Positions 1,003 to 33,783 of a stretch of 34,889 bases of DNA are shown piece by piece. The stretch covers positions 1 through 34,889 of the forward strand of contig NZ_QXJC01000002.1 in NCBI RefSeq assembly GCF_003570885.1, in the 5' to 3' direction. Under the pieces are notes generated by a model. That model worked only from the letters and a program-made list of their open reading frames with translations. It was not told the DNA's origin and searched no databases. The stretch is from Simplicispira hankyongi (GTDB taxonomy: Bacteria > Pseudomonadota > Gammaproteobacteria > Burkholderiales > Burkholderiaceae_C). Every line of letters begins with the position of its first letter. The stretch's first letter is position 1. Made by a program: the position numbers and the translations under genes.

Positions 1003-1057
1003 GTCTGCTTCTCCATGCATGCTTTTCTGCCTGCCACTCTGGATCCAGCCCGAGGCA

Positions 1058-1699: not shown

Positions 1700-1711
1700 G
1701 CGACAACCTCC

Positions 1712-3154: not shown

Positions 3155-3169
3155 ATCGATGCACGTCGG

Positions 3170-3619: not shown

Positions 3620-3760
3620 GGGAGTCCCCCTTTCCACTAAGGATCTCTCATATGGACGAATAGCGCAACGTGGAGACTGAATCACCCGGGGCGGTTCAAG
3701 GCCGATGCTGCACGCATTGGTCAGACAGAACGGATACCTGCTGCATCACGAAACGACGAC

Positions 3761-3776
3761 CCTGCTGTCTAGCAGG
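3761..3776 (-). terminator. Small hairpin just after the TRIC gene
   Basis: CCTGCT and AGCAGG form a perfect 6-bp stem around a 4-base loop, within 20 bases after the stop of the minus-strand TRIC/UPF0126 gene. There is no clear U-tract, so this is at best a weak terminator. Confidence 0.25.
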
Positions 3777-3778
3777 CC

Positions 3779-4444
3779 CTATTCCGAGCCGTTGCCGTCG
3801 TGTTCGGAAGAGTGCGGCAGGTTCCACTTGTAGTGCAGCGATAGATAACGAAACGCAAAGCACGCCACTAAAGCAACCCAGGTTCTACTGCTCGACAACC
3901 ATCCTAGATGCTCGCCAAACACTTCAATGCTGGCACCCACCAGCGCAGCCGACGCATAGATCTCACGCTGAAGGATCACCGGCACCCGATTGAGCAGCAC
4001 GTCACGCACCACGCCACCGCCCACGGCAGTGACTATGCCCAGCAGAACCGCCACCTCCGCGTTATGGCCAAAGATCATGGCCTTCTGCGCGCCGGTCACG
4101 GCAAAGAGTCCCAGGCCGATGGAGTCGAAGAGAATCACCGGGTGCGCCAGGCGCACGACCAGCGTGTTTGCGGCTATCGTCATCAAGGCTGCCGCCATGG
4201 CAACGGCAAGGTAGCGCCAATCGGTCAGCCCGGCCGGCGGCACAGCGCCGATGCACAGGTCGCGCAGCACGCCCCCGCCGCAAGCGACCGTGAACGCTAT
4301 CGCGACGACGCCGAACCAGTCGAGGCCGCGGTCTCTGGCAGCGACGGCACCGCTGATGGCAAAGGCGAATGTGCCCGCCAGATCGAGCGTTGTGAACAGG
4401 CGGTGGTCGTTCAGGCCGGCAAGTGCCAATTCGTGGACGTTCAT
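3779..4444 (-). CDS. TRIC-type / UPF0126 inner-membrane protein (two-repeat, possible glycine or cation transport)
   Basis: This 221-residue, very hydrophobic protein has about seven membrane helices built as two repeats. Each repeat has a helix start (FAISGAVAARDRG, FAVTGAQKAM) and a glycine-rich turn followed by Arg-Asp (GGGVLRD at about residues 56-62, GGGVVRD at about 143-149). That duplicated signature defines the UPF0126/TRIC-like bacterial family, for which cation-channel and glycine-transport roles have been proposed. The start codon overlaps the stop of the upstream amidohydrolase in an ATGA arrangement, so translation is coupled. The C-terminal tail SSEHDGNGSE is polar. Family membership is clear; the substrate is unknown. 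Confidence 0.85.
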   Translation of the reverse strand: MNVHELALAGLNDHRLFTTLDLAGTFAFAISGAVAARDRGLDWFGVVAIAFTVACGGGVLRDLCIGAVPPAGLTDWRYLAVAMAAALMTIAANTLVVRLAHPVILFDSIGLGLFAVTGAQKAMIFGHNAEVAVLLGIVTAVGGGVVRDVLLNRVPVILQREIYASAALVGASIEVFGEHLGWLSSSRTWVALVACFAFRYLSLHYKWNLPHSSEHDGNGSE

Positions 4445-5724
4445 GTGTTCGTTTCAGGCCGTGGCACCGGGGGGCACAGCCACGCGGCAGCGGCGGTCAG
4501 CATGGCCTGCAAGCCTGTCTCGAGCGTCGGGTGGATCTGCGGCGCGAACTTCGGCGAGTGGTTGCTGGGAATCTTGTTGACGGTTTTTTCCTGCTGGGCC
4601 TTGGCGTACACCGCTGGGTCGGTGCCGCCGACGAACCAGAACACATAGGGCACGCCCCAAGTGCGGCCGAAGATGCTGAAATCTTCACTGGCCGACGCTG
4701 GGCTGAGTGCCAGTGAGGCGTTCTTGCCAAACTGGTGGCCGAACGCCTGCGCCACCTTTTGTGTCGCGACAAGGTCGTTCTCGGTCAGCGGGTAACTGTT
4801 GATGGTGGTGAACTCGGGCGGCCGCTCGGCACCGGAGGCATCGCACTCGGCGCAGCAAATGCGGCGGATCGACTTGAGCATGTACTCACGCGTGTCCTCG
4901 CTGAAGGTGCGCATGTTCAACTTGATGGTGGCATCGTCGGGAATGATGTTTTCCTTGGTGCCAGCCTGCAGCGAGCCGATCGTGAGCACCGCCGGCTCGG
5001 TCGGTGCGATCTCCCGCGAGACGATGGTCTGCAGGCGCAGCGTGGTCGCGGCTGCCATGATGACCGGATCTATCGAGGTTTGCGGCTGTGAACCGTGTGA
5101 GCCGCGCCCGAAGAGCTTGATCTTCAGGCTGTCTCCGGCCGACAGTGTGACGCCGGGACGGTAACTCACGGTGCCGGCGGCACCGACCATCACGTGCTGG
5201 CCGAGGATGATGTCGGGTTTTGGGAAGCGGCCTGCGCCCCAGTCGCGCACCATGGCATTCGCGCCCTCGGCCGTTTCCTCGCCTGGCTGGAACACGACCA
5301 TCAGCGTGCCCTGCCAGGCCGCGCGGTTCGTGGACAGGATGCGCGCGGCGCCGATCATCCAGGTCACGTGCATGTCATGGCCGCACGAATGTGCCACGCC
5401 GACCTCGACACCTTCCGCGTCGCGTACCGTCACGGTGCTGGCATAGGGCAGCCCGGTGTTCTCGGCCATCGGTAGCGCGTCCATATCCGCGCGCAGCATT
5501 ACGGTCGGGCCGGCGCCGTTCTTCATCACGCAGACCACGCCGGTCACGCCGACGTTGCGCGTCACCTCGTAGCCGAGGCCCTGCATCGCGTCGGCGACGA
5601 TCTTCGCGGTGCGGACTTCCTGCATCGACAACTCGGGATGCTGGTGAAGGTCTTTGTAGAGTGCTTCAAGTTCGGCCATCAGGGTGGGTCCGACCGAGCC
5701 GAGAGCTTGGGTGAGGGCATTCAT
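4441..5724 (-). CDS. M20-family amidohydrolase (hippurate / N-acyl-amino-acid hydrolase type)
   Basis: This 427-residue metal-dependent amidohydrolase carries all the family signatures in order: RADMDALPM (78-86), HSCGHD (112-117, a metal-binding Cys/His cluster), FQPGEE (145-150, catalytic Glu), GQH (175-177), GRGSHGSQPQ (207-216, dimerisation-domain His) and a C-terminal metal-ligand His at about 389 in NHSPKFAP. Relatives split N-acyl amino acids, hippurate or auxin conjugates in the cytoplasm; the exact substrate cannot be read here. The gene overlaps the TRIC gene by four bases and lies 93 bases after the DHA2 transporter, so the three may form one minus-strand unit for uptake or export and cleavage of one compound. 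Confidence 0.9.
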   Translation of the reverse strand: MNALTQALGSVGPTLMAELEALYKDLHQHPELSMQEVRTAKIVADAMQGLGYEVTRNVGVTGVVCVMKNGAGPTVMLRADMDALPMAENTGLPYASTVTVRDAEGVEVGVAHSCGHDMHVTWMIGAARILSTNRAAWQGTLMVVFQPGEETAEGANAMVRDWGAGRFPKPDIILGQHVMVGAAGTVSYRPGVTLSAGDSLKIKLFGRGSHGSQPQTSIDPVIMAAATTLRLQTIVSREIAPTEPAVLTIGSLQAGTKENIIPDDATIKLNMRTFSEDTREYMLKSIRRICCAECDASGAERPPEFTTINSYPLTENDLVATQKVAQAFGHQFGKNASLALSPASASEDFSIFGRTWGVPYVFWFVGGTDPAVYAKAQQEKTVNKIPSNHSPKFAPQIHPTLETGLQAMLTAAAAWLCPPVPRPETNT

Positions 5725-5817
5725 GGCAACTCCAGAAGTGATGAAGCAAGGTTGAAAGATATCCGGTAGACAGCGTGCTTGAGGGAATCGTCGGCGCTTG
5801 ACATGACAGTTGGGGAT

Positions 5818-7284
5818 TCAGGCCTGCGCCTTCGTCCCCTTAGGCACCGTGAGCATGATGGAGACAATGGCCATCACGACCATCAGCACGTTGAAGCCCA
5901 GTGCAACGATGGCGGCTTCCCGCACGGCCAGGTTGTCCTGGCGGCCACTGAAGGTGATCACCCCTTCCAGCCAGTGCATGCCCGCTCTGTCGCCGCTGAG
6001 CGCAGTGAAAAGGGCGGCGGAGATCGCCACGCCGAAGGCAGCGCCGAGCGACGAAGCCATCTTGTAAATGCCCGAACCCGAGCCCGCCTGGGCCGCCGGA
6101 AGGTTCGACAGCGCCGCATCGGTCGACGGCGTCGCATAGAACGCCAGACCGACACCGAACAGGGCATAGCCGACGCTCGCGAGGATCTTGTAGTCCGACA
6201 GCAGCAGATTGGCAGGCGACACCAACAGAATCGCCAGGCCCGTGATCAGACAGCCCCAGACCATCGGCTTGCGCGGCCCGAAGTGCTGCAGCAGCTTCTC
6301 GCCCACGCGAATGAAGGCGATGATGGCAATCGCGTAGCCCAGCGTCAGAAAGCCGGCCTGTTGGGCGTTCATACCGCCACCGATCTGCACCAGTTGCAGC
6401 GACACGATCAGCGTGCCAGCGGTACCGTTGACCAGGAAGTTGGAAATCGTCGCGCCGGTGTAGGTCGCGTTCTTGAACAGGCTGAAATCAAAGAACGCAT
6501 TTGGCGCCTTGTCTTCGAAGCGGAAAAACAGCCAGCCGAAGACCACTGTTACCGCCAGCAGACCCAGGCCGACCGGACTGGTCCACCCCAGCTTGTTGCC
6601 CTGGGTCACCAGCACCTGCAGTGCCACCATGGTGACCATGAAAGCCAGCACGCCAGACAGGTCGAAGCTGTACCCACCCTTGGTGTCGGCCCTGTTCTCG
6701 GGTGCGCCGTGCATCATCCACAGGCCGAGCACGCTGACGGCGATGGCCACCCAGAAGATCGAGCGCCAACCGAAGTGCTGCGACATCAAGCCGCCGAACA
6801 GCGCGCACAGGCCTGAACCGCCCCACGAACCGATCGACCACATGCTGATGGCACGCTGGCGCTCGGAGCCCTCCCAAAATGCTTTCACCAGCGCCAGACT
6901 GGCAGGCATGATGCAGGCAGCCGACAGGCCTTGCAGCGCACGGCCCAACAGCATGACGGGCGCAGCCAGCTGCCCCTGCGGCGTGATGGCCACCAGCAGC
7001 GAGCCGGCAATGCTCAGGTAAAAGCCGATGCGTGTGATCTTCAGCCGGCCGATACGATCGGCCAAGCCGCCCATCACCACGATGAAGATGCCCGAGAACA
7101 GCGAGGTGATGGCTACCGCGACGTTCATCGTGCTCGCATCCATGCCCAGGTCGCGGCCCATGTCGGGTGCAATGTTGAGTGTCGTCTGGGCAAACAGCCA
7201 GAACGCGATGACGCCCATGATGATGCCGAACAGCAGCCGGTCGTTGCCCTTGTACGCCACCTTGGATTGAACGCTGGGATTCAT
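5818..7284 (-). CDS. MFS transporter, DHA2 (14-helix drug:H+ antiporter) family
   Basis: This protein is 488 residues long from the ATG at 7284. That start (MNPSVQSK) has a GGAG six bases upstream, whereas the in-frame ATG at 7296 has no convincing ribosome binding site. Motifs include the loop 2-3 signature GGLADRIGRLKI, LGRALQGLSAACIMPASLAL, and a Gly-rich helix-5 segment (GSWGGSGLCALFGG) resembling the antiporter motif C. The length and about 14 hydrophobic segments match DHA2 exporters (SmvA/QacA/EmrB type). It should export a small amphipathic compound using the proton gradient. The M20 amidohydrolase follows at 93 bases. The substrate is unknown. Confidence 0.87.
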   Translation of the reverse strand: MNPSVQSKVAYKGNDRLLFGIIMGVIAFWLFAQTTLNIAPDMGRDLGMDASTMNVAVAITSLFSGIFIVVMGGLADRIGRLKITRIGFYLSIAGSLLVAITPQGQLAAPVMLLGRALQGLSAACIMPASLALVKAFWEGSERQRAISMWSIGSWGGSGLCALFGGLMSQHFGWRSIFWVAIAVSVLGLWMMHGAPENRADTKGGYSFDLSGVLAFMVTMVALQVLVTQGNKLGWTSPVGLGLLAVTVVFGWLFFRFEDKAPNAFFDFSLFKNATYTGATISNFLVNGTAGTLIVSLQLVQIGGGMNAQQAGFLTLGYAIAIIAFIRVGEKLLQHFGPRKPMVWGCLITGLAILLVSPANLLLSDYKILASVGYALFGVGLAFYATPSTDAALSNLPAAQAGSGSGIYKMASSLGAAFGVAISAALFTALSGDRAGMHWLEGVITFSGRQDNLAVREAAIVALGFNVLMVVMAIVSIMLTVPKGTKAQA

Positions 7285-7767
7285 CTCGTTCTCCATTGCG
7301 CCTACGCAACCGGGTTTGTCTCGGCGGCTGCGTCACCGGCAAGTACCTTCTGATCGACCACTGCCGCCGGCATCGGCCGTCAAGGCCGACGAATCACAAT
7401 ACGCCTCTTGGCATTTCTGAGCAATACGTTTCCAATCGTTCTGCCCGTTGATCTGATGTTGCCCCTATTCTGGGAAATTAAAGTCGTAAACACAGGCCCA
7501 GCATCCATGCGGGTTTCCAGGCTATCGATACTTGAGGCGTGCCGACTAAAGTCGTAAACATCCAGAGTTCCCGGATTCCGCTCGACTCGCAAGCCTTCAA
7601 GCCAGCCGATAGCTCCCCTTTTGCCGCTCGCGAACCGCTCCTGCAGCGATCACTCACATCGCCGCAACCCCGCCGAGCGAGCTGCTCCGTCATCTCAAAC
7701 AGCTGCACTCGGCATCTCAGCGAGACCTTCCGCCTACTGGAGCGCAGCTAAGAGCCGCATGATTCAA
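7285..7767. other. Intergenic stretch between the DHA2 transporter and LysR genes
   Basis: About 480 bases show no convincing gene on either strand; the short open frames here have no recognisable family. The stretch should contain the promoter of the minus-strand transporter and the 3' flank of the LysR gene. The only structure I see is a 14-base direct repeat, listed separately. Confidence 0.5.
7479..7560. repeat. Pair of 14-base direct repeats (possible operator)
   Basis: TAAAGTCGTAAACA occurs at 7479-7492 and again at 7547-7560, 68 bases apart. At the second copy the sequence also forms a small dyad, CGACT-AA-AGTCG (7543-7554). The copies lie about 200-275 bases upstream of the DHA2 transporter start, so they could bind a regulator of that gene. 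Repeat identity is directly visible; function is inference. Confidence 0.4.
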
Positions 7768-8827: not shown

Positions 8828-9436
8828 ATGCAACTTCTCCACCTTGATTCCAGCGTTCTTGGCGCTGCGTCCGTCAGCCGCCAGCTTTCTGCGGAAATTG
8901 TTGCGCGGCAACGCGTCTTGCACCCTGGCTTACAGGTCGTCTACCGCGATCTTGCGGCTGACCCGGCTCTGCACCTCACAGGAACGCATATGGCCGCCTG
9001 GCAGGGTGCACAGGTCGAAGACGAGGTCATCACCGCCGACTTGGTCAAGGGCAACGCCTACTTGTCGGAACTCCTCGCCGCGGACATTGTGGTGATTGGT
9101 GCGCCGATGTACAACCTGTCCATCCCGACACCACTCAAGTCCTGGATCGACCGCATCGCAATTGCGGGGAAGACTTTCCACTACACGTCCATCGGCCCCG
9201 AAGGCTTGCTGGTCGGCAAGAAAGCGTTCGTCGCATCATCCCGTGGTGGGATCTACGCCCAGGGATCCCCGCGTGCGGCCATCGAGCACCAGGAGAGCTA
9301 TTTGCTGGCTTTACTGGCGTTCTTGGGCATGACAGATACCACCGTGGTACGCGCCGAAGGCCTCGCCATGGGTGCCGACGTCAAGGATGCCGCCGTCGGG
9401 CAGGCCTTGCAGGACATCGCCGCCTTCGCGGCCTGA
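8828..9436 (+). CDS. azoR: FMN-dependent NADH-azoreductase
   Basis: This 202-residue flavodoxin-fold protein has essentially the length of E. coli AzoR. The N-terminal LLHLDSSVLG with SVSRQL binds the FMN phosphate. PMYNLSIPTPLKSWID (93-108) and SSRGGIY (137-143) are the characteristic FMN-contact loops. It reduces azo dyes and quinones with NADH and can protect against thiol or quinone stress in the cytoplasm. AAAGGA before the ATG at 8828 is a good ribosome binding site. A LysR gene diverges upstream. A decayed reductase-like gene follows 27 bases downstream, so azoR may once have led a longer operon. Confidence 0.92.
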   Translation: MQLLHLDSSVLGAASVSRQLSAEIVARQRVLHPGLQVVYRDLAADPALHLTGTHMAAWQGAQVEDEVITADLVKGNAYLSELLAADIVVIGAPMYNLSIPTPLKSWIDRIAIAGKTFHYTSIGPEGLLVGKKAFVASSRGGIYAQGSPRAAIEHQESYLLALLAFLGMTDTTVVRAEGLAMGADVKDAAVGQALQDIAAFAA

Positions 9437-9463: not shown

Positions 9464-9735
9464 ATGACCTATTCCATCATCGGTGCTGGCAGCGTTGGCT
9501 CCGCCGTGGCCCATTACTTCGCCCGAGTCGACATTCCCGTGCGCATTGCCACTTCGCGTGGCCCGCATTGGCTGGCGGCGACTCGAAGTCCGTACGTCAC
9601 GCCCGTCTCCATTGGAGATGCCATTGGCGCTGCCACATCACGCTGGCGATCCGTTTTAAGGTTGCCACAACTGCATCTTGGCCCGCGAGCAAGCAGATCC
9701 TTGCTTCCGCGCAACTCCAACGAAGGACATATGAC
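9464..9735 (+). pseudogene. Decayed F420-dependent-NADP-reductase-like gene
   Basis: The first 32 codons read as a normal member of the family seen four more times in this window: MTYSIIGAGSVGSAVAHYF with a GxGxxG turn and Ser-Arg at residues 31-32. The match then falters (a PVSIGDAIGA segment resembles the next conserved stretch), and the continuation LAIRFK...ASWPASK is found only in another frame, at about 9630-9705. The central and C-terminal two thirds are missing. The next SDR begins where the remnant ends. This is a gene broken by an internal deletion and frameshift, not a 91-residue functional protein. Confidence 0.7.
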
Positions 9736-10470
9736 ATGAACCGACTGAATGGGAAGACCGCGGTGATCACCGGTGGCGCTACCGGCATCGGCCGCGCCGC
9801 GGCAAAGCGCTTCATTGAGGAGGGCGCTTTCGTCTTCATCTTCGGCCGTCGGCAGGAGGCGCTCGACGCCGCTGTGGCCGACCTGGGGCCTAATGCCCGC
9901 GCGGTGAAAGGCTCGGTCTCCGATCTGGTTGCCCTTGACAGACTCTACGCGGCGGTGAAGGCTGAGCGCGGCACCCTCGACATCGTCTTTGCGAATGCCG
10001 GAGCGGGAGGGCCCCTCCCGCTCGGCAAGCTTACCGCTGAGCACATTGACGAGACGTTCGAGACCAATGTGAAAGGGACCATCTTCACAGTTCAGAAGGC
10101 GCTCCCGCTGATGGGCGATGGCGGTTCGATAATTTTGACTGGATCGAGCGCCGGCACCACAGGCGCCCCAGCATTCAGCGTCTACAGCGCGAGTAAGGCA
10201 GCAGTGCGTAACCTCGCGCGGACCTGGGCGGAAGACCTTAAGGGCACCGGCATCCGGGTCAACGTGCTGTCGCCGGGACCAACGGCGACCGAACTTGCAA
10301 AGGAAGCGCTAGGAGAGGAAGGCATGAAAGTATTCGCCGCGATGAATCCGCTACAGCGAATGGCCGACCCAGCAGAGATCGGGGCAGCAGCTGCCTTCCT
10401 CGCCTCGTCGGACAGCAGCTTCATGACCGCCAGCGAGATTGCCGTCGACGGCGGCCTCGCGCAAATTTAA
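9736..10470 (+). CDS. Classical SDR-family oxidoreductase
   Basis: This is a 244-residue short-chain dehydrogenase starting at the ATG at 9736, with AAGGA upstream; a longer in-frame extension to 9568 reads through the decayed gene and is not used. Visible motifs are TGGATGIG (12-19, dinucleotide binding), FGRR (36-39, the arginines favour NADP), NAGAG (87-91), the catalytic Ser in TGSSAG (about 137) and YSASK (150-154). Products of this type reduce carbonyls or oxidise alcohols in the cytoplasm; the substrate is unknown. It lies 72 bases before reductase-like protein A, with a strong stem-loop between them. Confidence 0.9.
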   Translation: MNRLNGKTAVITGGATGIGRAAAKRFIEEGAFVFIFGRRQEALDAAVADLGPNARAVKGSVSDLVALDRLYAAVKAERGTLDIVFANAGAGGPLPLGKLTAEHIDETFETNVKGTIFTVQKALPLMGDGGSIILTGSSAGTTGAPAFSVYSASKAAVRNLARTWAEDLKGTGIRVNVLSPGPTATELAKEALGEEGMKVFAAMNPLQRMADPAEIGAAAAFLASSDSSFMTASEIAVDGGLAQI

Positions 10471-10476
10471 CGCACT

Positions 10477-10522
10477 ACGCCCGACCGGGCGCTCCATTCG
10501 AATGCGGAGCGTCGTCGGGCGT
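10477..10522 (+). repeat. Large imperfect stem-loop between SDR and reductase-like A
   Basis: ACGCCCGAC (10477-10485) pairs with GTCGGGCGT (10514-10522), and inside it CGCTCC (10490-10495) pairs with GGAGCG (10506-10511), with a small internal bulge and ATTCGAAT at the tip. No U-tract follows. It could attenuate transcription, stabilise the 3' end of the SDR message, or be a REP-like element. The pairing is seen in the sequence; the role is not. Confidence 0.5.
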
Positions 10523-10542
10523 ACTAAACCCAAGGAGAACAT

Positions 10543-11142
10543 ATGAGCTACGCAATCATTGGCTTCGGCAATATTGGCCAGGCACTAGCAAAGGCGTTTG
10601 CCCGCAAGGGAATCGAAGTATCTGTTGCAACCACTCGCGACCCAGAAAGCTTTGCCTCCGCTGCGGCTGCGATCGGACCTACGATCATTCCCAAAAAACT
10701 AGCGGAAGCCGTCAAAGCGGACATCGTCTTTTTGGCCGTCCGTTTCGAGTCGCACGAGGACGTCGCGAAGGCTCTACCGAGCTGGAAGAACAAGACCGTA
10801 GTCGATGTGACCAACGCCTACGGCGTGCCCCCTGAGCAACTGCAAGGACAACCTTCTTCCAGAGCAGTCGCGCAGGCGTTCACTGGTGGAAAACTGGTGA
10901 AGGGTTTCAACCATCTGGGCGCTGCCGTCCTTGCCCAGGAGCCGACCGTACATGGTGGTAGGAGAGTCGTGTTCCTCGCGAGCGACGATGACGGCGCAGC
11001 AGCGCAGATTGGTGCGCTTGCGGAAAATCTCGGCTTCTCCCCGATCAAACTTGGCGGGCTTTCCGAAGGCGGACTACTTGTGCAGGCGCGCGGGAATAGC
11101 TGGGGTCAATTGATCTTCAAGGACTTGGTCAAGTTCGACTGA
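10543..11142 (+). CDS. F420-dependent-NADP-reductase-like protein A (PF03807-type, NADP-binding)
   Basis: This 199-residue protein is a single Rossmann domain plus a short C-terminal helical part. The N-terminus MSYAIIGFGNIG has GFGNIG at 7-12, and Thr-Arg at 31-32 occupies the position that reads the NADP 2'-phosphate in archaeal F420:NADP oxidoreductase (family knowledge). VVDVTNAYG and LVKGFNHLGAAVLAQEP are the conserved inner motifs shared with protein D (26232-26834). AAGGAG precedes the ATG at 10543. It is much shorter than 6-phosphogluconate or ketopantoate reductases. The true cofactor pair is unknown; an NADP-dependent flavin, quinone or deazaflavin reductase is possible. Confidence 0.85.
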   Translation: MSYAIIGFGNIGQALAKAFARKGIEVSVATTRDPESFASAAAAIGPTIIPKKLAEAVKADIVFLAVRFESHEDVAKALPSWKNKTVVDVTNAYGVPPEQLQGQPSSRAVAQAFTGGKLVKGFNHLGAAVLAQEPTVHGGRRVVFLASDDDGAAAQIGALAENLGFSPIKLGGLSEGGLLVQARGNSWGQLIFKDLVKFD

Positions 11143-11172
11143 TCCCTGGCGACCATCCGATGCCGATGTGAC

Positions 11173-11751
11173 TCAACGCGTGGCCTTCTTGACGCCGTTG
11201 CCAGGCCGATTTGTGAGGATGGCGCTCGCGACAATGTGAAAGAGATGATCGGCCCGTGGCGCGAATGAGGGTAGGTCAACGAGCCAGCCGAGCGCCGACA
11301 TCAGGCCGAACAGGTCGTCCCCATTCATATCATTGCGCGCCGTACCTTCGGCCTGAGCACGGAGCAGAAGTCGAGCGCTCGCTGAGTGCACCGCTGCGCA
11401 TGAAGCATAAAGAGCGGAGTCCGGGTTCGTGTGGGCGGCCGCCATCAGAGCGACAACGCCCCTATAGCTTTGCGTGAATACCACCCATTCACGAAACCAG
11501 GACAAGAGAGCTTCGCCAGGTGCAGTCGACGCTTCGAGTTCACCTGCTCTCTGTGTCAGTGCGTCCAGGTTCGTACGCACCAATGCATCGAACAAGGCTT
11601 CTCGCGTCGGGAAATGGCGAAGCAGTGTGGCCAGACCTACGTCGGCCCGGCGGGCGATATCTCGCATTGACGCGTCGACACCATGCTCTGCGACGACGCC
11701 GCGGGCGACCGAAAGTAGGTGGCTGTAATTTCTTTTGGCGTCAGCTCGCAT
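11173..11751 (-). CDS. TetR/AcrR-family repressor
   Basis: This 192-residue protein has a TetR DNA-binding domain at about residues 8-58 (DASMRDIARRADVGLATLLR, then HFPTREALFDALV) and an all-helical ligand/dimerisation domain resembling the SbtR-type C-terminus (GDDLFGLMSALGWLVDL). It converges with reductase-like A, 30 bases away, and diverges from reductase-like B. Its start is only 16 bases from a perfect 14-bp-arm inverted repeat covering a consensus promoter, which is very likely its own operator. The ligand is unknown, presumably an electrophile or aromatic handled by the neighbouring reductases. Confidence 0.92.
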   Translation of the reverse strand: MRADAKRNYSHLLSVARGVVAEHGVDASMRDIARRADVGLATLLRHFPTREALFDALVRTNLDALTQRAGELEASTAPGEALLSWFREWVVFTQSYRGVVALMAAAHTNPDSALYASCAAVHSASARLLLRAQAEGTARNDMNGDDLFGLMSALGWLVDLPSFAPRADHLFHIVASAILTNRPGNGVKKATR

Positions 11752-11758
11752 AGGGTTT

Positions 11759-11787
11759 TTGACAAACGAACCATTGATCCATATAAT
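11759..11787 (+). promoter_or_regulatory. Consensus sigma70 promoter for reductase-like B operon
   Basis: TTGACA at 11759-11764 and TATAAT at 11782-11787 are separated by 17 bases, an exact consensus match. It points into the reductase-like B, extended SDR, reductase-like C series, leaving a 5' leader of about 105 bases before the ATG at 11901. The -35 lies 8 bases upstream of the tetR start codon. Confidence 0.8.
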
Positions 11788-11802
11788 CGGATCAATGGTT
11801 CG
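11767..11802. promoter_or_regulatory. TetR operator: perfect 14-bp inverted repeat
   Basis: CGAACCATTGATCC (11767-11780) and GGATCAATGGTTCG (11789-11802) are exact inverted copies with an 8-base spacer. The repeat covers the promoter spacer, the -10 and the likely transcription start, so a bound dimer would block RNA polymerase. It lies 16 bases from the TetR gene start, so autorepression is also expected. Confidence 0.8.
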
Positions 11803-11835
11803 ATTGCTTCCAATCGAAATATGGATCGATGATCC
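11799..11835. promoter_or_regulatory. Two further short dyads in the leader
   Basis: TTCGATTG and CAATCGAA (11799-11806, 11811-11818, 4-base spacer) overlap the right edge of the TetR operator, and GGATC-GAT-GATCC (11823-11835) follows. They may be secondary regulator sites or mRNA structure in the leader. Only the symmetry is seen. Confidence 0.4.
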
Positions 11836-11900
11836 GCATGATACAGCGGCTTTGCGCCAATAGGAACAGAGGCACTGTCCGACAACAGAAAAGACACAGC

Positions 11901-12536
11901 ATGAGCAATATCAGCATTATCGGATCAGGCGGGATCGCCGCAGCGATAGGCGGCCTTGCCGTCAAGGCCGGACACACAGTCGAGGTGATGAGTCGCGACG
12001 CCGCGAACGCGCGGCTGCTGGCCGAGCAGCTCGGAGCTGGCGCAACGACAGGGATGTACGGCGCCGTGCCGGCCGGAGACATCGTCATCCTGGCGGTTCC
12101 CTACTCCGCCGTGCTCGATGTGGTGGAGCAGTACGGCATGGGGCTGGCAGGCAAAGTCCTCGTCGACGTCACCAACCCCATCAACTCTGACTTCACCGAC
12201 TTCGTGACTCCAAAGAACAGCTTCGGCGCGCAGGAGATTGCCAAGGCCGCGCCATCGAACGCTGATGTCGTCAAGGCATTCAACACCCTGTTTTCCCATG
12301 TCCTGGCGGCGGGTCCAGTCGATGGCCGTCCCTTGGACGTGTTCATCGCAGGGGACGACGCGCCGGCAAAGGCGCGCGTCTCGGCATTCATCGAGAGCCT
12401 CGGATTGCGTCCGATGGATACCGGACAGCTATCCATGGCGCTGACGCTTGAGCACGCCTGCCTGCTGTCGCTGGGGCTCCTCGCCCACTCTGTCAAACAC
12501 ACCAACTTCTCGATCGGCGTCAGCCTCCTCGGCTGA
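11901..12536 (+). CDS. F420-dependent-NADP-reductase-like protein B
   Basis: This 211-residue protein starts at the ATG at 11901, where the Rossmann strand begins (MSNISIIGSGGIAAAIGG); the longer frame to 11829 adds sequence unlike the family. Ser-Arg at 31-32 suggests NADP. Conserved inner motifs are VPAGDIVILAVPYSA, VDVTNPI, VVKAFNTLFSHVLA and DVFIAGDDA. It closely resembles protein C (13729-14349), and B and C form a subfamily distinct from A and D. It is the first gene downstream of the TetR-controlled promoter. The weak AGAAAAG before the start suggests modest translation. Substrate and electron acceptor are unknown. Confidence 0.86.
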   Translation: MSNISIIGSGGIAAAIGGLAVKAGHTVEVMSRDAANARLLAEQLGAGATTGMYGAVPAGDIVILAVPYSAVLDVVEQYGMGLAGKVLVDVTNPINSDFTDFVTPKNSFGAQEIAKAAPSNADVVKAFNTLFSHVLAAGPVDGRPLDVFIAGDDAPAKARVSAFIESLGLRPMDTGQLSMALTLEHACLLSLGLLAHSVKHTNFSIGVSLLG

Positions 12537-12585
12537 GGAAACGCACCATCCCTCTCGCATCCCATCACCCACAAGGAGCACTATC

Positions 12586-13527
12586 ATGCACATATTCGTT
12601 ACCGGCGGGACCGGCCATTCCGGTCCCTATATCATTTCCAACCTCATCGCAGCCGGCCACGAGGTTACTGCGCTTGCCCGCTCGGACAAGTCTGCAGAGG
12701 CAGTGTCAGCGCTTGGCGCCAAGGCGCGCCGCGGCGACCTCGATGATCTCGACGGGCTAAAAGCGGCGGCCGCAGCCTCCGACGGCGTCATCCACGTCGC
12801 GCATCGGCAGGATCTGCTTCCCACCGGAGGCCTCGACGCGGTGGCTGCCGCGGAGCAAAAGATCATGCTCGCATACGGTGAGGCTCTGAAGGGGACCGGA
12901 AAGCCGCTGGTCACCTCGGGGAGTATCGGCTCGCCGGGTTGGGAACATCTCGGCCGCCCAGCCACTGAGGAGGATCCCACTCTCTCTGGCGGCGAGAAGT
13001 TCAAGGGCACCTTGCGAGTTCGTAACGTCGTAGAAACGGCCGTACTGGGTCTCGCCAAGCAGGGCGTGCGGTCCTCGGTCGTGCGGATTCCTACCATCAT
13101 CCACAGCACGACCGATAACACCGGCTTCCTCCCGATACTGATCGGACTTGCAAAGGAGAAGGGTGTCGTCGGCTATCCCGGCGATGGCAAGAACAATTGG
13201 TCGGCCGTGCACGCCCGTGACCTCGCCGTCGTGTTCCGTCTGGCGCTGGAGAAGAGCCCCGCCGGCAGGAATTGGCATGCGGTTGCCGACGAGGCTATTC
13301 CGTTCCGCGATATCGCCGAAGCCATCGGCAACCGCTTGAACCTGCCAGCCGTGCCGATTCCCGCAGATGAGCTGATGCTGCCGGGCTTTTTCGGGTTCCT
13401 CGCGAATCTGGTCAAGCTGGACGTCGCCGCGTCCAGCGCCATCACCCGCCAGATTCTCGGCTGGGATCCCACTCAGCCCGGCATGCTCGCCGATTTGGAC
13501 AACGGCCATTACTTCCCTGCCGGCTGA
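12586..13527 (+). CDS. Extended/atypical SDR-family NAD(P)-binding protein
   Basis: This 313-residue protein starts at the ATG at 12586, with AAGGAG nine bases upstream. The N-terminus MHIFVTGGTGHSG is the TGxxGxxG nucleotide-binding loop of extended and atypical SDRs. ALARSDKSAE carries an Arg suited to NADP. The usual YxxxK catalytic pair is not evident: the corresponding helix reads GTLRVRNVVETAVLG. It therefore belongs to the atypical NAD-dependent epimerase-like group whose members often lack it. It lies between two reductase-like paralogues in one plus-strand operon under the TetR-controlled promoter. The substrate is unknown. Confidence 0.85.
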   Translation: MHIFVTGGTGHSGPYIISNLIAAGHEVTALARSDKSAEAVSALGAKARRGDLDDLDGLKAAAAASDGVIHVAHRQDLLPTGGLDAVAAAEQKIMLAYGEALKGTGKPLVTSGSIGSPGWEHLGRPATEEDPTLSGGEKFKGTLRVRNVVETAVLGLAKQGVRSSVVRIPTIIHSTTDNTGFLPILIGLAKEKGVVGYPGDGKNNWSAVHARDLAVVFRLALEKSPAGRNWHAVADEAIPFRDIAEAIGNRLNLPAVPIPADELMLPGFFGFLANLVKLDVAASSAITRQILGWDPTQPGMLADLDNGHYFPAG

Positions 13528-13544
13528 TGAGCTGACGGCAGGGA
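13514..13544 (+). terminator. Hairpin overlapping the end of the extended SDR gene
   Basis: TCCCTGCCG (13514-13522) pairs perfectly with CGGCAGGGA (13536-13544) around a 13-base loop containing the stop codon. No U-run follows, so it is a possible attenuator rather than a clear intrinsic terminator between the SDR and reductase-like C. Confidence 0.35.
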
Positions 13545-13728
13545 GCCCAGTCGCAACGACCCCGGCGGATAACCATGTCGCGTTGCCGTGGTCCGTTCGA
13601 CCAAAGACTCTGTCGACCCGGCATGGGTTGAGGGATTACCCACATGGCTCGGCACACAGGAAATTTCAACTGGGGGATGCTCAGTATAGAGACTGCCAGC
13701 AATACCCCAACGCACTAGGAAAACACAC

Positions 13729-14349
13729 ATGAGTACCATCAGCATCATTGGTTCAGGAACCATGGCCACGGCTATCGCCGGCCGTGCCGCCAAGGCTGGA
13801 CACACTGTCGAGGTAGTCAGCCGCGACACCGCAAAGGCGCAGGCTCTGACAGACAAGTTCGCAGCCGGAGCGGTCACAGGGATGTACGGCACCGCGCCGG
13901 CGGGCGACATCGTCATCCTGGCCGTGCCATACACTGGTGCGGCTGCGGTGGTGGCCGACTTTGGCGACGCGCTCGACGGCAAGGTGATCATCGACATCAC
14001 CAACCCGGTTGCTCCAGACCTTTCGGGCCTCGTTACCCCCCACGGTAGTTCTGGTGCGCAGGAGACCGCCAAGGGCCTCCCCGCCGGCGCGCATGTCGTG
14101 AAGGCGTTCAACACCATCTTCGGCCACGTCCTTGCCAAGGATGGACACCTCGACGCGTTCATCGCAGCCGATGATGCGGAGGCCAAGGCACGCGTCGCAA
14201 CTTTCCTCAAGAGTCTCGGGCTGCGTCCGTTGGATGTCGGCGGCCTGCACATGGCAGCGACACTCGAGGCGCTCGGTCTGATGATGATTGGCTTGGCCAA
14301 GAACGGGGCCAGCACCTGGGACATCGCCCTGAACGTTGAGATCGGCTGA
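13729..14349 (+). CDS. F420-dependent-NADP-reductase-like protein C
   Basis: This 206-residue paralogue of protein B has the same order of motifs: MSTISIIGSGTMATAIAG, Ser-Arg at 31-32, TAPAGDIVILAVPYTGAA, IDITNPV, VVKAFNTIFGHVLA, DAFIAADDA and a C-terminal MAATLEALGLMMIGLAKNG helix. The 201-base gap from the SDR contains no obvious gene and could hold an extra promoter. It is followed after 89 bases by an NTF2-like protein. It is probably a cytoplasmic NADP-dependent oxidoreductase; the partner substrate is unknown. A 387-residue antisense frame here is a shadow. Confidence 0.86.
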   Translation: MSTISIIGSGTMATAIAGRAAKAGHTVEVVSRDTAKAQALTDKFAAGAVTGMYGTAPAGDIVILAVPYTGAAAVVADFGDALDGKVIIDITNPVAPDLSGLVTPHGSSGAQETAKGLPAGAHVVKAFNTIFGHVLAKDGHLDAFIAADDAEAKARVATFLKSLGLRPLDVGGLHMAATLEALGLMMIGLAKNGASTWDIALNVEIG

Positions 14350-14438: not shown

Positions 14439-14855
14439 ATGAGCGCACAAGAGAATGTCGAGGTTGTGAAGGATTTCTTTGCAGCGACTGGCCGCGGTGA
14501 TAGCCAAGGCCTGCTGGCGCTGTGTACCGAAGACATCGAGTGGATCATTCCGGGCGAGGACTGGCCCCTGGCCGGTACGCACCGCGGGCACGCCGGATTG
14601 CGGGACTTTCTGCAAAAGGCATCCGAAACGGTGGAGACTCATTTCCGCGGTCTCCCCGAGTTTGTGACGCAAGGTGACCGGGTACTGATAGTCGGCTCCG
14701 CTTGGGGCAGGATCAAAGCCACGGATAAGACGTTCGAGGACGATTGGGTGTTCGCCATCACCGTCCGAGATGGCAAAGTGACGAACATCCGGGAGAACAT
14801 CGACACGCAGGCGCTAGCGCGGGCCTCGCAGATGGACGTGGCCGGGCCGGTGTAG
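14439..14855 (+). CDS. NTF2-like / SnoaL-fold protein
   Basis: This 138-residue cone-shaped alpha+beta-fold protein begins MSAQENVEVVKDFFAATGRG, followed by the typical LLALCTEDIEWIIPG and HRGHAGLRDFLQ segments of the nuclear-transport-factor-2-like family. I chose the ATG at 14439 because GGAGAG sits six bases upstream and the family fold begins there; a longer frame adds 15 residues. Members act as small isomerases, hydrolases or ligand binders. No catalytic residue assignment is possible. It ends the plus-strand oxidoreductase series and is followed by an insertion-sequence remnant. Confidence 0.85.
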   Translation: MSAQENVEVVKDFFAATGRGDSQGLLALCTEDIEWIIPGEDWPLAGTHRGHAGLRDFLQKASETVETHFRGLPEFVTQGDRVLIVGSAWGRIKATDKTFEDDWVFAITVRDGKVTNIRENIDTQALARASQMDVAGPV

Positions 14856-15297: not shown

Positions 15298-16767
15298 CTA
15301 ATTCCTGCGATGTCCCGTCAGTGCATAGGAGGTTGGAATAGCTGGTAAAGGACCCCAGTCGCCACCCAATGAGCGAATCAACCCCACGGTTGCGTCGTAC
15401 TGGCTGGCTCGCACCTGTAGCGCCTGGCGACGATTGCTAAGTTCGCTGCGCCGCGCGTCGAGCAAATCGAGCTGGCTCACATAGCCGTTGCGGTAGCGCG
15501 TGTCCGACATGGCGGTGGCGCTTTGTGCGGAGCGAACCGCGCGGGCTTGCGCTTCTGCTTGATCGTGCAGCAGGCGCAGGCTGGAGAGTTGGTCTTCGAC
15601 TTCGCGAAATGCCACCAACACCTGACCGCGGTAGCTGGCGCCCGCAGCGTCAAGCTGGGCGCGGGCGCCTTGTACAGCGGCGTCGCGCCGGCCACCGTCA
15701 AAGATGGGTAGCGACAGCAGCGCACTGACACCCCATGCGCGAGAGGACCATTTCAGCAAGTCACCGATGTCCGTGGACGCATAGCCGCCGTTGGCGGTGA
15801 GCGCAATGTCGGGGAACCACGCGGTACGTACGACGCCCAAGCGGGCCTGGGCCGCCATCAAACTGCTTTGCGCTGCCGACACATCCGGGCGGCGGGTCAG
15901 CACGGTGGCGGGCACGCCGGCCGGGATGGTGGGTAGCGCGGTGGTCCAGGTGGTCACTGGCACGCTGAAGCTCGATGCGGCATCGCCCACCAACGCTGCC
16001 AGGGCATGCTCGAGCGCAGCGCGGCGGCGGTCCAGCGCAAAGGCGTCGGCTTCGGTGGATGCGACTTCGGTGCGTACGCGCTCCACATCTAACTCCGCAA
16101 TGTCGCCCGCCTGGAAGCGGCGCTCAGTCAGGCGCAAGGTGTCCTGGTAGGCATCGACAGTGCCGCGCACCAGGGCGATTTCCGCGTCTAGCGCGCGCAG
16201 TGCCAAGTAGGTTTGCGCGGTATCTGTTTGCACGGCGAGACGGGTGCTTTGCAGCAAGGCATCGCGCGCCTGCGCATCCAGGGCTGCGGCGGTGCTGGCA
16301 CCTGCCAGCCGGCCAAACAGGTCCAGTTCATACGACACGCTGGCGCCCGCCGTGTGCAGCGCGGCGGGGCTTGTGCCGCCAACCGTGTTGGCGCCTGCCT
16401 GCCGGCTGCTGGATGCATTCAGCCCCACTTGCGGCAGTCGGTCCGCATCGGCTTGGCGCAGCAATGCGTGGGCTTGCGCCAATCGGGCCGCTGCTTCCTG
16501 AATGCTGGTGTTGTGCTCGCCGGCGCGTTCCACGAGCGCGGTGAGGCTGGGGTCTCCAAACACCAGCCACCAGGCGCCGCGGGCTTGGGCTTCGGCAGGG
16601 GCGGCTGCTACCCAGCGCGGTGCGCCAGGCGCTTGCTCCTTGAATTGACTCGGCGGCGTGAGCGGTTCGGGCGCCTGGGTAGGCGCGCTGGCGCAGCCGG
16701 CAATGGCCAGCGCTGCAACCAGAGGAAGCAACGCGCTGCGCAATGGAAATATGAAACGGTGTGTCAT
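15298..16767 (-). CDS. RND efflux outer membrane factor lipoprotein (OprM/OprN/OprC type)
   Basis: This 489-residue lipoprotein starts at the ATG at 16767: a basic N-terminus, a hydrophobic stretch and the lipobox AIAGC with the acylated Cys at 25. A longer frame to 16899 would bury the signal peptide. Two repeated outer-membrane-factor helical domains follow (WWLVFGDPSLTALVERA, LPQVGLNAS, then VLTRRPDVSAAQSSL and AWFPDIALTANGGY). It forms the trimeric channel that lets the pump discharge outside the cell. It begins 37 bases after the RND gene and ends the operon. Confidence 0.92.
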   Translation of the reverse strand: MTHRFIFPLRSALLPLVAALAIAGCASAPTQAPEPLTPPSQFKEQAPGAPRWVAAAPAEAQARGAWWLVFGDPSLTALVERAGEHNTSIQEAAARLAQAHALLRQADADRLPQVGLNASSSRQAGANTVGGTSPAALHTAGASVSYELDLFGRLAGASTAAALDAQARDALLQSTRLAVQTDTAQTYLALRALDAEIALVRGTVDAYQDTLRLTERRFQAGDIAELDVERVRTEVASTEADAFALDRRRAALEHALAALVGDAASSFSVPVTTWTTALPTIPAGVPATVLTRRPDVSAAQSSLMAAQARLGVVRTAWFPDIALTANGGYASTDIGDLLKWSSRAWGVSALLSLPIFDGGRRDAAVQGARAQLDAAGASYRGQVLVAFREVEDQLSSLRLLHDQAEAQARAVRSAQSATAMSDTRYRNGYVSQLDLLDARRSELSNRRQALQVRASQYDATVGLIRSLGGDWGPLPAIPTSYALTGHRRN

Positions 16768-16804
16768 GGTCGATAGTCCGTACGTGTGGATGTCTGTGGG
16801 ACAG

Positions 16805-19800
16805 TTATTCGTGCGCTTTGCGCGCGGCTGCTGGCGCAAGGTGGGCGCCGCCGCCAGCACCGCGCGGGGTAGAGACGATTTCTTCCGCCAGTGCAACATC
16901 GCCGTGGTGTTGCAGGGGCCGGTTGCCCGCCAGGCGGCGCATCAGCACATAGAAAACAGGCGTGAGGAACAGACCGAATGCGGTCACGCCGATCATTCCT
17001 GAGAACACGGCCACGCCCATGGCGCGGCGCATTTCCGAGCCTGCGCCAGTGGCGAGCACCAGCGGCAGGACGCCCATCACAAAAGCCAGTGAGGTCATCA
17101 AAATCGGGCGCAGCCGCAAGCGGCTGGCCTCAATGGCGGCGGCGACGGGCGTGCGGCCAGCAAACTCCAGCTCGCGGGCAAACTCCACAATCAAGATCGC
17201 GTTTTTGGCGGACAGTCCCACCAGCACGATGAGTCCGATCTGCGTGAACACGTTGTTGTCGCCATGCGAAAGCCACACGCCGGTCATGGCGGCGAGCAAG
17301 CCCATGGGAACGATCAGGATGATGGCGACCGGAAGCGTCAGGCTTTCGTACTGCGCGGCCAGTACCAAAAACACCAGCAAGATGGCCAAGGGGAACACCA
17401 GCGAGGCAGAGTTGCCCGCCAAAATTTCCTGGTACGTCAGCTCGGTCCATTCAAAGCTGATGCCTTTGGGCAAGGTCTCGGCGGCGATGCGCTCAATGGC
17501 AGCGCGCGCTTGCCCGCTGGAGTAGCCCGGCGCTGCGCCGCCGTTGATGTCGGCCGCGAGGTAGCCGTTGTAGCGCATGGCGCGTTCGGGCCCAAAGCTG
17601 GAGTCCACCTTCATCAAGGCCGACAGCGGCACCATCTCGCCCGTGGTGGAGCGCACTTTCAACAAGCCAATGTCTTCAGCGCGTGCGCGGTATGGCGCAT
17701 CGGCTTGCACACGCACGCTGTAGGTGCGGCCAAACTGGTTGAAGTCGTTGGCGTACAGGCTGCCCAGATAGATCTGCATGGTGTCGAAAATATCGGTCAC
17801 CGACACGCCCAGCTGGCGCGCCTTGGTGCGGTCAATGTCGGCATACAGCTGCGGCACGTTGACTTGCCAGCTTGTGAACATGCCTGCCAACTCGGGCGTT
17901 TGGTAGGCCTTGCCCATGAAGGCTTTGACAGCGGCGTCCATCTGCTCGTAGCCCAGCGAAGCGCGGTCTTCCAGTTGCAGCTTGAAGCCGCCCGTGGTGC
18001 CCAGGCCGGATACTGGCGGCGGAGGAAACATCACGATGAAGGCGTCTTGAATGCCGGCAAACTGCTGGTTGAGCTGGCCTGCAATCGCACCGCCACTTTG
18101 GTCGGCGCGTTCACGCGCGGAAAACGGCTTGAGCGTTGCGAACACGATGCCCGAGTTGGAGCTATTGGTGAACCCGTTGATAGAGAGGCCTGGGAAAGCA
18201 ATGGCGTCTTCCACATTAGGGTTCTTCTTCATGATGTCGCCCATGCGGTGAATGACGTCTTCAGTGCGGTCCAACGTGGCGCCATCAGGCAGCTGCGCGA
18301 AGCCGATCAGGTACTGCTTGTCCTGGCCCGGCACAAAACCGCCAGGAATCACCTTGAACAAGCCAAAGGTTGCGCCCACCAGCACCAGGTAAATCACCAG
18401 CATCAGGGTTTTGCGCGAGATCACGCCTTTCACCCCGCCGCTATAGGCCTCGGAGCCCCGGTGGAACACCTTGTTGAAGCCGCGAAACAGCCAGCCAAAG
18501 GTACGATCCATGCCACGCGTTAACACGTCCTTGGGCGCATCGTGGCCGCGCAGCAGCAGGGCGGCCAGCGCAGGTGACAGCGTGAGCGAGTTGATCGCCG
18601 AGATCACGGTAGAGATGGCGATGGTCACCGCAAACTGGCGGTAAAACTGGCCGGTCAACCCACTGATAAATGCCAGCGGCACAAACACCGCCACCAGCAC
18701 CAAGGCGATGGCGATGATGGGGCCCGATACTTCGCGCATGGCGCGGTACGTGGCATCACGCGGCGAGAGACCGGCTTCGATGTTGCGCTCTACGTTTTCG
18801 ACCACCACGATGGCGTCGTCCACCACAATGCCGATGGCCAAGACCAGCCCAAACAGGCTGAGCGCATTGATCGAGAAACCAAGGCCGTGCAGCACGGCAA
18901 ACGTGCCAATCACCGACACCGGCACCGCCAGCAGCGGGATGATGGATGCGCGCCAGGTTTGCAAGAACAAAATCACCACCAGTACCACCAACAAGATGGC
19001 TTCGAGCAGCGTATGCACGACCGATTCAATGGATGCGCGCACAAACTGCGTGGGGTCGTACGCAATGCGGAACTCCACACCTTCAGGCATATTTTTTTGC
19101 AGCGCGGCCATGGTGCTGCGCACTTCAGACGAAACATCGAGCGCGTTGGAGCCCGGTGCCTGGAACACGCCCATGCCCACAGCGGGGTCGTTGTTCAGCA
19201 GTGAGCGCAGTGAATAGTCGGCCGAACCCAGCTCCAGGCGCCCAATGTCGCGCAGGCGGGTAATAGCGCCATCGGGTGCGCTTTTGACGATGATGTCGCC
19301 AAACTCTTCCACCGTTTTCAGGCGGCCTTGCGCATTAATGGACAACTGCATGTCGACGCCTGGCAAGCCGGGCGAGGCGCCCACTACGCCTGCGGCGGCC
19401 TGTACGTTTTGCCCGCGGATGGCGGCCACCACATCGCTGGCCGAGAGACCACGCTGCGCGACCTTTTGCGGATCGAGCCACACCCGCATGGAGTAGTCGC
19501 CGCCACCAAAAATCTGCACTTGGCCAACGCCCTGAATGCGCGCCAAACTGTCTTTAACGTTCAGCAGGGCGTAGTTACGCAAATACGTCATGTCGTAGCG
19601 GTTGTTGGGCGACACCAGGTGGACAACCATGGTCAGGTCGGGCGAACTCTTGATGGTGGTGATGCCCAAGCGGCGCACTTCTTCTGGCAAACGCGGCTCG
19701 GCCTGCGATACGCGGTTTTGCACCAGCTGCTGGGCCTTGTCAGGGTCGGTGCCGAGCTTGAAGGTGACAGTTAGTGTCATCACACCATCGGTAGTGGCTT

Positions 19801-20047: not shown

Positions 20048-20178
20048 GGTGTGCTCCTGCGGCTGCGCGGGCGCAGCCCTCCCCCAGGACGGCGGGTGTC
20101 AAGCCGTCCGGCGGTGTGGAAATCAATAGCGATTTGTGGGATCGCGCGTCTACGGTGCGCAGGCGCGCGCCAGCAGTT

Positions 20179-26226: not shown

Positions 26227-26231
26227 ATTAG

Positions 26232-33688: not shown

Positions 33689-33715
33689 AAACAACTCCTT
33701 GGTTTTGCAAGCTTT

Positions 33716-33740
33716 GGACGATACCTGCCGCAATCCGGAC
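33716..33740. promoter_or_regulatory. Direct GGAC half-sites, candidate AraC binding site
   Basis: GGAC at 33716-33719 and again at 33737-33740 lie 21 bases apart, two helical turns, as expected for direct AraC-family half-sites, within the SDR/AraC divergent promoter region. A further inverted copy (GTCC) lies near 33777. The assignment is inferred from spacing and position. Confidence 0.4.
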
Positions 33741-33783
33741 TTACTATGCTTAGATATCAAGATTTTTGTTCCAATAGTCCAAC

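Follow-up and report, generated by a model that had tools for sequence, protein, structure and literature searches.

The first 34,889 nucleotides of contig NZ_QXJC01000002.1 of Simplicispira hankyongi, hereafter the window, contain a group of genes for small proteins of the PF03807 family, which alternate with genes of the short-chain dehydrogenase/reductase (SDR) type. Four of the small genes are intact open reading frames (ORFs) whose products, single-domain proteins of 199-211 residues, pass the PF03807 cut-off of 21.6 bits: A (10543-11142, 83.5 bits), B (11901-12536, 56.7 bits) and C (13729-14349, 64.0 bits) on the plus strand, and D (26232-26834, 66.6 bits) on the minus strand. A fifth copy, A′, is truncated. 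It occupies 9464-9640 on the plus strand, the right end being approximate, and its ORF continues to 9739 in unrelated sequence; the PF03807 match of the ORF 9464-9739 covers residues 4 to 50 only (23.1 bits, E 1.2e-4). A preliminary description of this DNA had listed the five copies, and the profile check keeps all of them in the family. Their coordinates hold, with D on the minus strand, and the fifth copy, then called decayed, rather looks cut at a junction (see below). An [ST]-R pair had been reported at residues 31-32 and is read in 5 out of 5 copies. The proposed division into two subclasses is also borne out, since identity is 57% between A and D, 56% between B and C, and 26-36% from one subclass to the other. 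PF03807 was found at 18 places genome-wide, namely the five copies of the window, 12 in frames of 316-657 residues, and a 216-residue frame matched weakly and in part (23.6 bits); the clear small members of the family thus all lie in the window.

The pairing with SDR genes announced in the same description is seen in the gene order, which alternates as SDR1-A, B-Epi-C and D-SDR2. SDR1 (9736-10470, plus strand), upstream of A, encodes a classical SDR with a YSASK active site and an NADP-type GRR motif. Its PDB matches include 4fgs (E 4.5e-80) and 4bms (E 4.8e-76), and YSASK, the YxxxK active site, is present in 34/34 SDR1 orthologues of at least 75% identity. Epi (12586-13527, plus strand), between B and C, is an extended or atypical SDR of the epimerase/NmrA type (PF01370/PF05368). 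Its model has the extended-SDR fold, with Gox2253 (3wj7) as nearest structure, and no Tyr-x3-Lys was found in it, in the comparison with 3wj7 either; six ORFs fell outside the motif pattern in the motif counts. The YxxxK site is replaced by T/S142-x3-Arg146 together with Glu150, Arg146 and Glu150 being invariant in 25 aligned rows, and the nearby Tyr139 is a Phe in the window, with Leu at +4. SDR2 (25432-26235, minus strand, PF13561) lies behind D and overlaps its end by 4 bases.

Several other genes accompany these. A TetR/AcrR regulator (TetR_C_43; 11173-11751, minus strand) is divergent from B. A LysR-type regulator (PF00126/PF03466; 7768-8658, minus strand) is divergent from a gene for a flavodoxin-fold protein of the azoreductase or NAD(P)H quinone reductase type (8828-9436, plus strand; PF02525, E 6.1e-47), which precedes the SDR1-A and B-Epi-C genes; the best NCBIfam azoreductase model gives this protein 98 bits, under the cut-off of 188. 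Behind C lies a gene for a SnoaL-like protein of NTF2 fold (14439-14855, plus strand; PF12680), nearest to 3fgy (E 1.4e-57); its start was set by the 3fgy match, the ORF opening at 14394.

The same arrangements recur far beyond this strain. A scan with C kept 80 loci out of 456 confirmed relatives, which span Rhizobiales, Burkholderiales, Pseudomonas, enterobacteria, Acidobacteria, Actinobacteria and others. Over these 80 loci and the window, Epi was present in 74, SDR1 in 38, HxlR in 36, A in 33, SnoaL in 32, TetR in 24 (window included), HxlR2 in 16, LysR in 13 and a second SnoaL in 11; the recurrent LysR is of another type than the LysR genes of the window, and unlabelled ORF families, judged by eye to be antisense or alternative frames, were left out of these counts. 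Epi is directly upstream of C in 70/75 cases, SDR1 directly upstream of A (at least 65% identity) in 26/28, and B directly upstream of Epi in 43/81. Two operons, SDR1-A and B-Epi-C, often with SnoaL, therefore recur from Rhizobiales to Acidobacteria, and they are found in either order, apart, or inverted. The clustering of the copies was judged by this recurrence in other genomes. Since gene order and regulators both vary, the genes are more likely to be linked in function than simply inherited together. The pairing with SDR and TetR/LysR genes, which the preliminary description had proposed to look for, is found well outside this strain.

The looser members of the group were also seen elsewhere. 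LysR, azoreductase and an A- or D-type gene occur together in three further loci (L045, L061 and L075), at 30-50% identity. Genes of the D and SDR2 types are found together in L027 (8-1987) and L085 (1892-3865), the pair of L027 standing beside a 75% relative of the LysR1 of the window, and SDR2-type genes lie behind C in L026 and L034. D-SDR2 may thus be a fourth cassette, as these sequences hint. Tandem duplicates of Epi were noted in L018, L022, L024, L030 and L071. C and Epi relatives, with some B and SDR1 relatives, are arranged differently in the actinobacterial carriers L090-L093, which have cofD as well.

We then looked at which regulators face these operons. Among 47 cases for B, the divergent gene was HxlR 19 times and TetR 17 times; for SDR1 it was HxlR2 in 15, LysR in 11 and TetR in 4 of 38 cases, and for an Epi lacking B it was HxlR in 16 and TetR in one of 31 cases. 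Counted by locus, 21 of the 80 had TetR only, 36 HxlR or HxlR2 only, and two had both. Pfam confirmed the HxlR family for the four members searched. An N-terminal Cys is invariant in the relatives, in 36/36 HxlR and 16/16 HxlR2 proteins. Excerpts of two reports bear on this residue: such a Cys is the means by which HypR, YodB and CatR of Bacillus sense quinones, diamide and hypochlorous acid (HOCl) (PMC6943732), and a conserved Cys is likewise described for electrophiles and oxidants (PMC7835342). The formaldehyde mechanism of HxlR requires in addition a Lys two residues past the Cys, according to the part of PMC7835342 available, and this Lys is absent from both the HxlR and HxlR2 consensus sequences.

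The TetR and HxlR types each have a conserved putative operator. The predicted TetR operator, GGATCANTGATCC (GGATCA-N-TGATCC), often comes in two or three copies. Exact sites numbered 23 in 1.22 Mb versus 0 and 0 in two random controls, and sites with at most one mismatch 58 versus 4 and 4; 51 of the 58 stand before TetR, B, SDR1 or Epi, and 7 elsewhere. The operator was found before TetR in 22/24 loci, before SDR1 in four and before Epi in two. In the window, three putative copies lie at 11768-11780 and 11789-11801 (two mismatches each) and at 11823-11835 (one mismatch). Copy 2 comes 21 bp after copy 1, a spacing shared with many relatives, and both are within an inverted repeat with 18-base arms. 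The window total at up to three mismatches, 9, is not above chance (13), so that the case for the operator in the window is that its three best matches all fall in one promoter. The sequence AACCATTGATCC gave six matches in the window versus 2.2 expected, of which two are exact and in the TetR promoter, the four others, with two mismatches and elsewhere, being treated as chance. For HxlR, a dyad ACTTG-N7-CAAGT was found in 32/36 promoters; it is not kept in the window, which has 10 matches, all with three mismatches, versus 17 expected.

The preliminary description had likened the small proteins to F420:NADP oxidoreductase (FNO) and left their redox partner as a question. With the NpdG model TIGR01915, whose cut-off is 149.8 bits, A, B, C and D score 31.0, 67.4, 81.6 and 36.7 bits, respectively. 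The model passed its cut-off in 3 of 11 genomes searched, all three among the four Actinobacteria, with genuine copies at 230-236 bits. In a tree of 59 proteins, unrooted and with weak deep forks, the three genuine NpdG form their own clade (support 100/99), apart from A/D, which make one group (100/99); B/C fall together and, with two ungrouped rows, are split from FNO at 96/88. The division between B and C is clean only outside Actinobacteria, actinobacterial rows labelled B or C grouping together, and two proteobacterial C rows are unplaced. Genuine NpdG have AAFHH or AAFNH where the window proteins have KAFN or KGFN, a position that we take to make F420 contacts. As for F420 synthesis, the genome of S. 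hankyongi gave no cofD match, and for cofH only 20.5 bits against a cut-off of 374.1. cofD exceeded its cut-off in 3 of 14 control genomes and in 4 of the 50 carrier genomes tested (of the 80 loci), these four being the Actinobacteria L090-L093. None of the 46 non-actinobacterial carriers tested had cofD over the cut-off, some of them being metagenome bins of which completeness is not given; three more carriers showed weak partial cofD matches, a signal that the E. coli control also gives. Some S. meliloti strains carry F420 genes, as stated in an excerpt of PMC8407117, so that absence of these genes holds per genome.

We therefore rejected the assignment of A-D as F420:NADP oxidoreductases, based on the low NpdG scores, their place outside the NpdG clade and the lack of cofD in their own genome and in 46/46 non-actinobacterial carriers. 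The partner question is narrowed to the extent that self-made F420 is not used there; A-D probably use another one than F420. NADPH-dependent F420 reductase is the name that public records give these proteins, also where the bacterium has no cofD; our tests say that this label is wrong for the non-actinobacterial carriers examined. One such “NADPH-dependent F420 reductase” appears among changed genes in PMC8436566, in the part of the report available given without its neighbourhood.

The closest solved relative of A by sequence is 4huj (E 1.4e-31). C, the only one of the four that was modelled, gave a mean predicted local distance difference test (pLDDT) of 88.5, with 5n2i, L. plantarum 2raf, STEAP proteins and S. 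meliloti 4huj as nearest folds. Against 5n2i, Ser31, Arg32 and Lys36 of C stand opposite Ser, Arg and Arg, presumably the ligands of the 2′-phosphate. KAFN is found in B and C, as in the STEAP4, 2raf and 4huj alignments, and KGFN in A. The tree of 59 proteins speaks against the “expanded family” of the preliminary description, taken as local multiplication: A, B, C and D are each closer to relatives elsewhere, and local duplication was rejected. Anti-phage defence was likewise rejected, as PADLOC gave no match for A-D, Epi or SDR1.

The truncated copy A′ appears to mark a junction between cassettes. Over its first ~56 residues it shares 41-53% identity with A-type proteins, among the 11 best hits listed. 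In 38 alignments with the SDR1-A cassettes of other bacteria, DNA similarity starts no further left than bin 9650-9659, which is where 11 of them begin, the remaining 27 beginning later; this start falls inside the intergenic promoter of SDR1. Alignment with 16 HxlR2 upstream regions indicates that the SDR1-proximal half of this promoter is retained (9653-9735, plus strand), and that the HxlR2-proximal half and the HxlR2 gene are absent from the window. We interpret the arrangement as a fusion between two cassettes, LysR/azoreductase/A′ and SDR1-A; A′ looks cut off at the junction rather than eroded in place.

The module was apparently acquired from elsewhere. The stretch without match in the congener regions compared extends from 7453, the last matching base, to the contig end at 34889. 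On its left, identity to congener G008 is 93% over 3699-7382 and 96% over 7379-7453; right of 7453, the compared regions of G008 (39 kb) and G009 (20 kb) gave no match at E 1e-10. The 75 bp at 7379-7453 sit 668 bp further on in the congener, an offset that indicates an indel at the left joint. An exact 14-base direct repeat, TAAAGTCGTAAACA, is present at 7479-7492 and 7547-7560, within the unmatched stretch and close to its left edge, and could be the mark of a past insertion. The CheW and CheR-TPR genes (1-3698), left of 3699-7382, likewise have no match to the compared congener region, and the contig looks mosaic on both sides. At strict E-values, C was found in 1 of 26 genus genomes, 1 of 397 sampled family genomes and 1 of 370 sampled class genomes, each time the genome of the window itself, as was A in 1 of the 370; the family and class scans used even samples, with the best 7-8 candidates per genome scored. 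Module-like DNA is present on plasmids of Sinorhizobium, Caballeronia, Paraburkholderia and Rhizobium, among others, at 76-86% identity (20 rows listed of 34 records), no record covering 80% of the query. A-type proteins were found on 240 plasmid records, 201 of these at less than 60% identity.

Other features of the window were also noted. An RND efflux operon (OEP, AcrB-type, HlyD; 15298-21420, minus strand) directly follows the module, and its pump gene is nearest to Comamonadaceae plasmid copies (~82%), unlike the module. A further SDR-type ORF (32936-33952; a 338-residue frame, with adh_short from residue 94) stands beside an AraC/cupin regulator (33784-34713). No tRNA was found in the window, and no Rfam family reached its gathering score there.

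Taken together, the locus is a set of cassettes, regulator/SDR1-A and regulator/B-Epi-C, with the looser LysR/azoreductase-A′ and D-SDR2, often joined by a SnoaL-like protein. Direct observations are the gene content of the cassettes and its recurrence, the conservation of the operators, a patchy occurrence and, in the tested non-actinobacterial carriers, the lack of F420 synthesis genes. We suggest, at a probability of roughly one half, that they form a horizontally moving, inducible, NADPH-dependent reduction module of interchangeable cassettes for the detoxification of reactive compounds. Its substrate, acceptor and inducer, the detoxification role and the SnoaL step are what we infer. The cassettes share NADPH-type reductases under sensors, one sensor class being known for reactive electrophiles; the best reading is that the targets are reactive carbonyl, quinone or thiol-reactive compounds, and that the reductases are STEAP-like and F420-independent. 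The preliminary description had envisaged a multi-enzyme, NADP-dependent reduction system as yet undescribed as a unit, and this is supported: no description was found among the matches listed in searches of the open-access literature.

Such a module might work as follows. A reactive compound (an aldehyde, ketone, quinone or thiol-reactive electrophile) would free the TetR repressor from its operators at 11768-11835, and in other bacteria an HxlR regulator with its invariant cysteine would take the place of TetR. Release of the repressor would let several NADPH enzymes be made. SDR1 would reduce carbonyls by the usual Tyr-Lys mechanism, and the azoreductase-type protein would reduce quinones through flavin mononucleotide (FMN). 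A-D would hold NADPH at their [ST]-R site and pass hydride to a small non-F420 acceptor, which may be the electrophile itself or, in the manner of STEAP proteins, a flavin or quinone. Epi would bind NADPH without the usual Tyr-Lys pair, and SnoaL may isomerise or sequester a product.

Expression reports from other bacteria, of which excerpts were available, are consistent with a role in detoxification, without proof. Three consecutively numbered Collimonas genes, annotated as regulator, F420_oxidored and YkvO, are up with log2 fold changes of 5.3-6.7 in the absence of biotite, and rank second to fourth in the list of genes so affected (PMC12542777). An organogold compound reportedly raised B. 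subtilis ykvO almost 1000-fold, with higher significance than any other upregulated gene, and the response had some similarity to disulfide stress (PMC8518660). Azoreductases reduce quinones (PMC4051601).

A number of points nevertheless weigh against the detoxification module. The TetR type carries no information on the ligand, and the window has no DUF24 regulator. SnoaL-like proteins are also found in polyketide pathways. Because the loci were collected through their similarity to C, and some of their spread is recent transfer (Epi being up to 94% identical across families), the counts are not independent. Neither TetR nor HxlR was in view in 21 of the 80 loci, in some through contig ends. 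The consensus of GGATCANTGATCC was derived from the same promoters in which it was later counted, and at up to two mismatches its sites are barely above control (105 versus 68 and 56). No GC step occurs at the block, leaving acquisition without GC support, and the “native” part to its left also has a patchy distribution, with its M20 gene present in only 3 of 26 congeners and, at 84.5%, on a Cupriavidus plasmid, which counts against a simple acquisition picture. The kinship of SDR1 with B. subtilis YkvO is putative. The Collimonas genes were matched by annotation only, and they were up in the absence of biotite, not with an electrophile (PMC12542777). HxlR proper is described, in the part of PMC6943732 available, as more specific to aldehydes.

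Four other explanations were considered. The cassettes could act on one given metabolite of plant, fungal or soil origin (a ketone, an enone or a polyketide-like compound), degrading or modifying it, with TetR, LysR or HxlR tuned to it and detoxification not the point. We find this rather doubtful, although SnoaL-like, NmrA/epimerase-like and SDR proteins are common in such pathways, LysR is divergent from SDR1 in 11 of 38 cases and many carriers belong to named soil or plant genera. Indeed, no catabolic or transport gene was recognised among the ORF families present in at least 6 of the 81 loci (unlabelled families being judged by eye and four searched), and the cassettes occur singly and in different orders, their core enzymes being reductase types. 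A second idea, that Epi and A-D are NADP(H) sensors or hydride relays instead of enzymes acting on an outside substrate, would fit the absence of YxxxK from Epi, its Pfam matches, which include NmrA, and the small single-domain Rossmann fold of A-D. It seems unlikely, as the C model (C alone of the four) matches full-length FNO and STEAP reductase domains, and a sensor would hardly be expected in four intact copies within one window.

Two further possibilities carry much less weight. It is very improbable that A-D are real F420:NADP oxidoreductases that use either F420 supplied by neighbours or an Fo-like deazaflavin. The best Foldseek match of C is the T. fusca FNO 5n2i, the NADP-type [ST]-R is kept, four actinobacterial carriers do have cofD, and F420 genes occur in some S. 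meliloti strains (PMC8407117, excerpt); against this, A-D stay 68-119 bits under the NpdG cut-off, stand apart from the three genuine NpdG in the tree, and neither their own genome nor any of the 46 non-actinobacterial carriers, of completeness not given, has cofD over the cut-off. Hardly credible, finally, is that the genes are neighbours by chance in a gene-rich accessory region. The window also has RND, MFS and AraC genes that were not seen to recur, but the same families are adjacent in dozens of loci, in several phyla, in several orders and with swapped regulators. Recurrence was seen for SDR1-A and B-Epi-C; the tie of D-SDR2 and of the azoreductase to the rest is less firm.

If the detoxification reading is true, rhizobia, Burkholderia relatives, pseudomonads and others share a mobile tolerance module, which would also be a source of new NADPH reductases. 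Three unrelated sensor types on the same operons should respond to overlapping compounds, which offers a handle on function, and the two operators are defined well enough for reporter tests. More tentatively, a widespread and undescribed modular tolerance system of soil and plant bacteria may be at hand, in which small F420-independent, STEAP-like NADPH reductases are teamed with SDRs in operons that cross phyla, their sensors swapped between HxlR, TetR and LysR. The A-D enzymes would then make up a new reductase class, stand-alone and of NADPH:flavin/quinone or NADPH:electrophile type, concealed under the label of NADPH-dependent F420 reductase.

Compared with known systems, A-D share with NpdG/FNO (TIGR01915; 5n2i, 1jax) the PF03807 Rossmann fold, the length and [ST]-R, and the C model superposes on 5n2i with a template modelling (TM) score of 0.83-0.86 (by query). 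They differ in their scores (31-82 bits versus 149.8), their place outside the FNO clade, their motif and, outside Actinobacteria, their carriers, which lack cofD. The NADPH domain of STEAP proteins (2vns, 2yjz, 6hcy, 7tai, 9pgw) has the same fold, with phmmer E-values of 1.4e-15 to 3.9e-6, a Foldseek probability of 1.00 and a TM score of 0.72-0.77 by query for the C model, and STEAP4 has the KAFN motif in common with B and C. The membrane haem domain of STEAP is lacking in A-D, which are 199-211 residues in whole, and a use of flavin by A-D would be by likeness to STEAP. S. meliloti SMa0349 (4huj), the closest solved relative of A, is called hypothetical or uncharacterised in the records, and no paper was found for this tag in the open-access literature. 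SDR1 matches 4fgs and the SDRs 4bms and 4i5d, which we take to be of the RasADH type, with E-values of 1.4e-75 to 4.5e-80, together with YSASK and GRR. Lastly, the regulons of Bacillus DUF24 regulators (YodB, CatR, HypR, HxlR) have a parallel in the relatives of the module, where an HxlR-family regulator with an invariant N-terminal Cys is divergent from reductase operons; the Bacillus regulons also include an azoreductase (PMC6943732, excerpt). They differ in having other enzymes, and the window has TetR and LysR instead, the Lys needed for formaldehyde being missing from the two consensus sequences of the relatives. The module looks like the known electrophile and quinone regulons, built from other enzymes.

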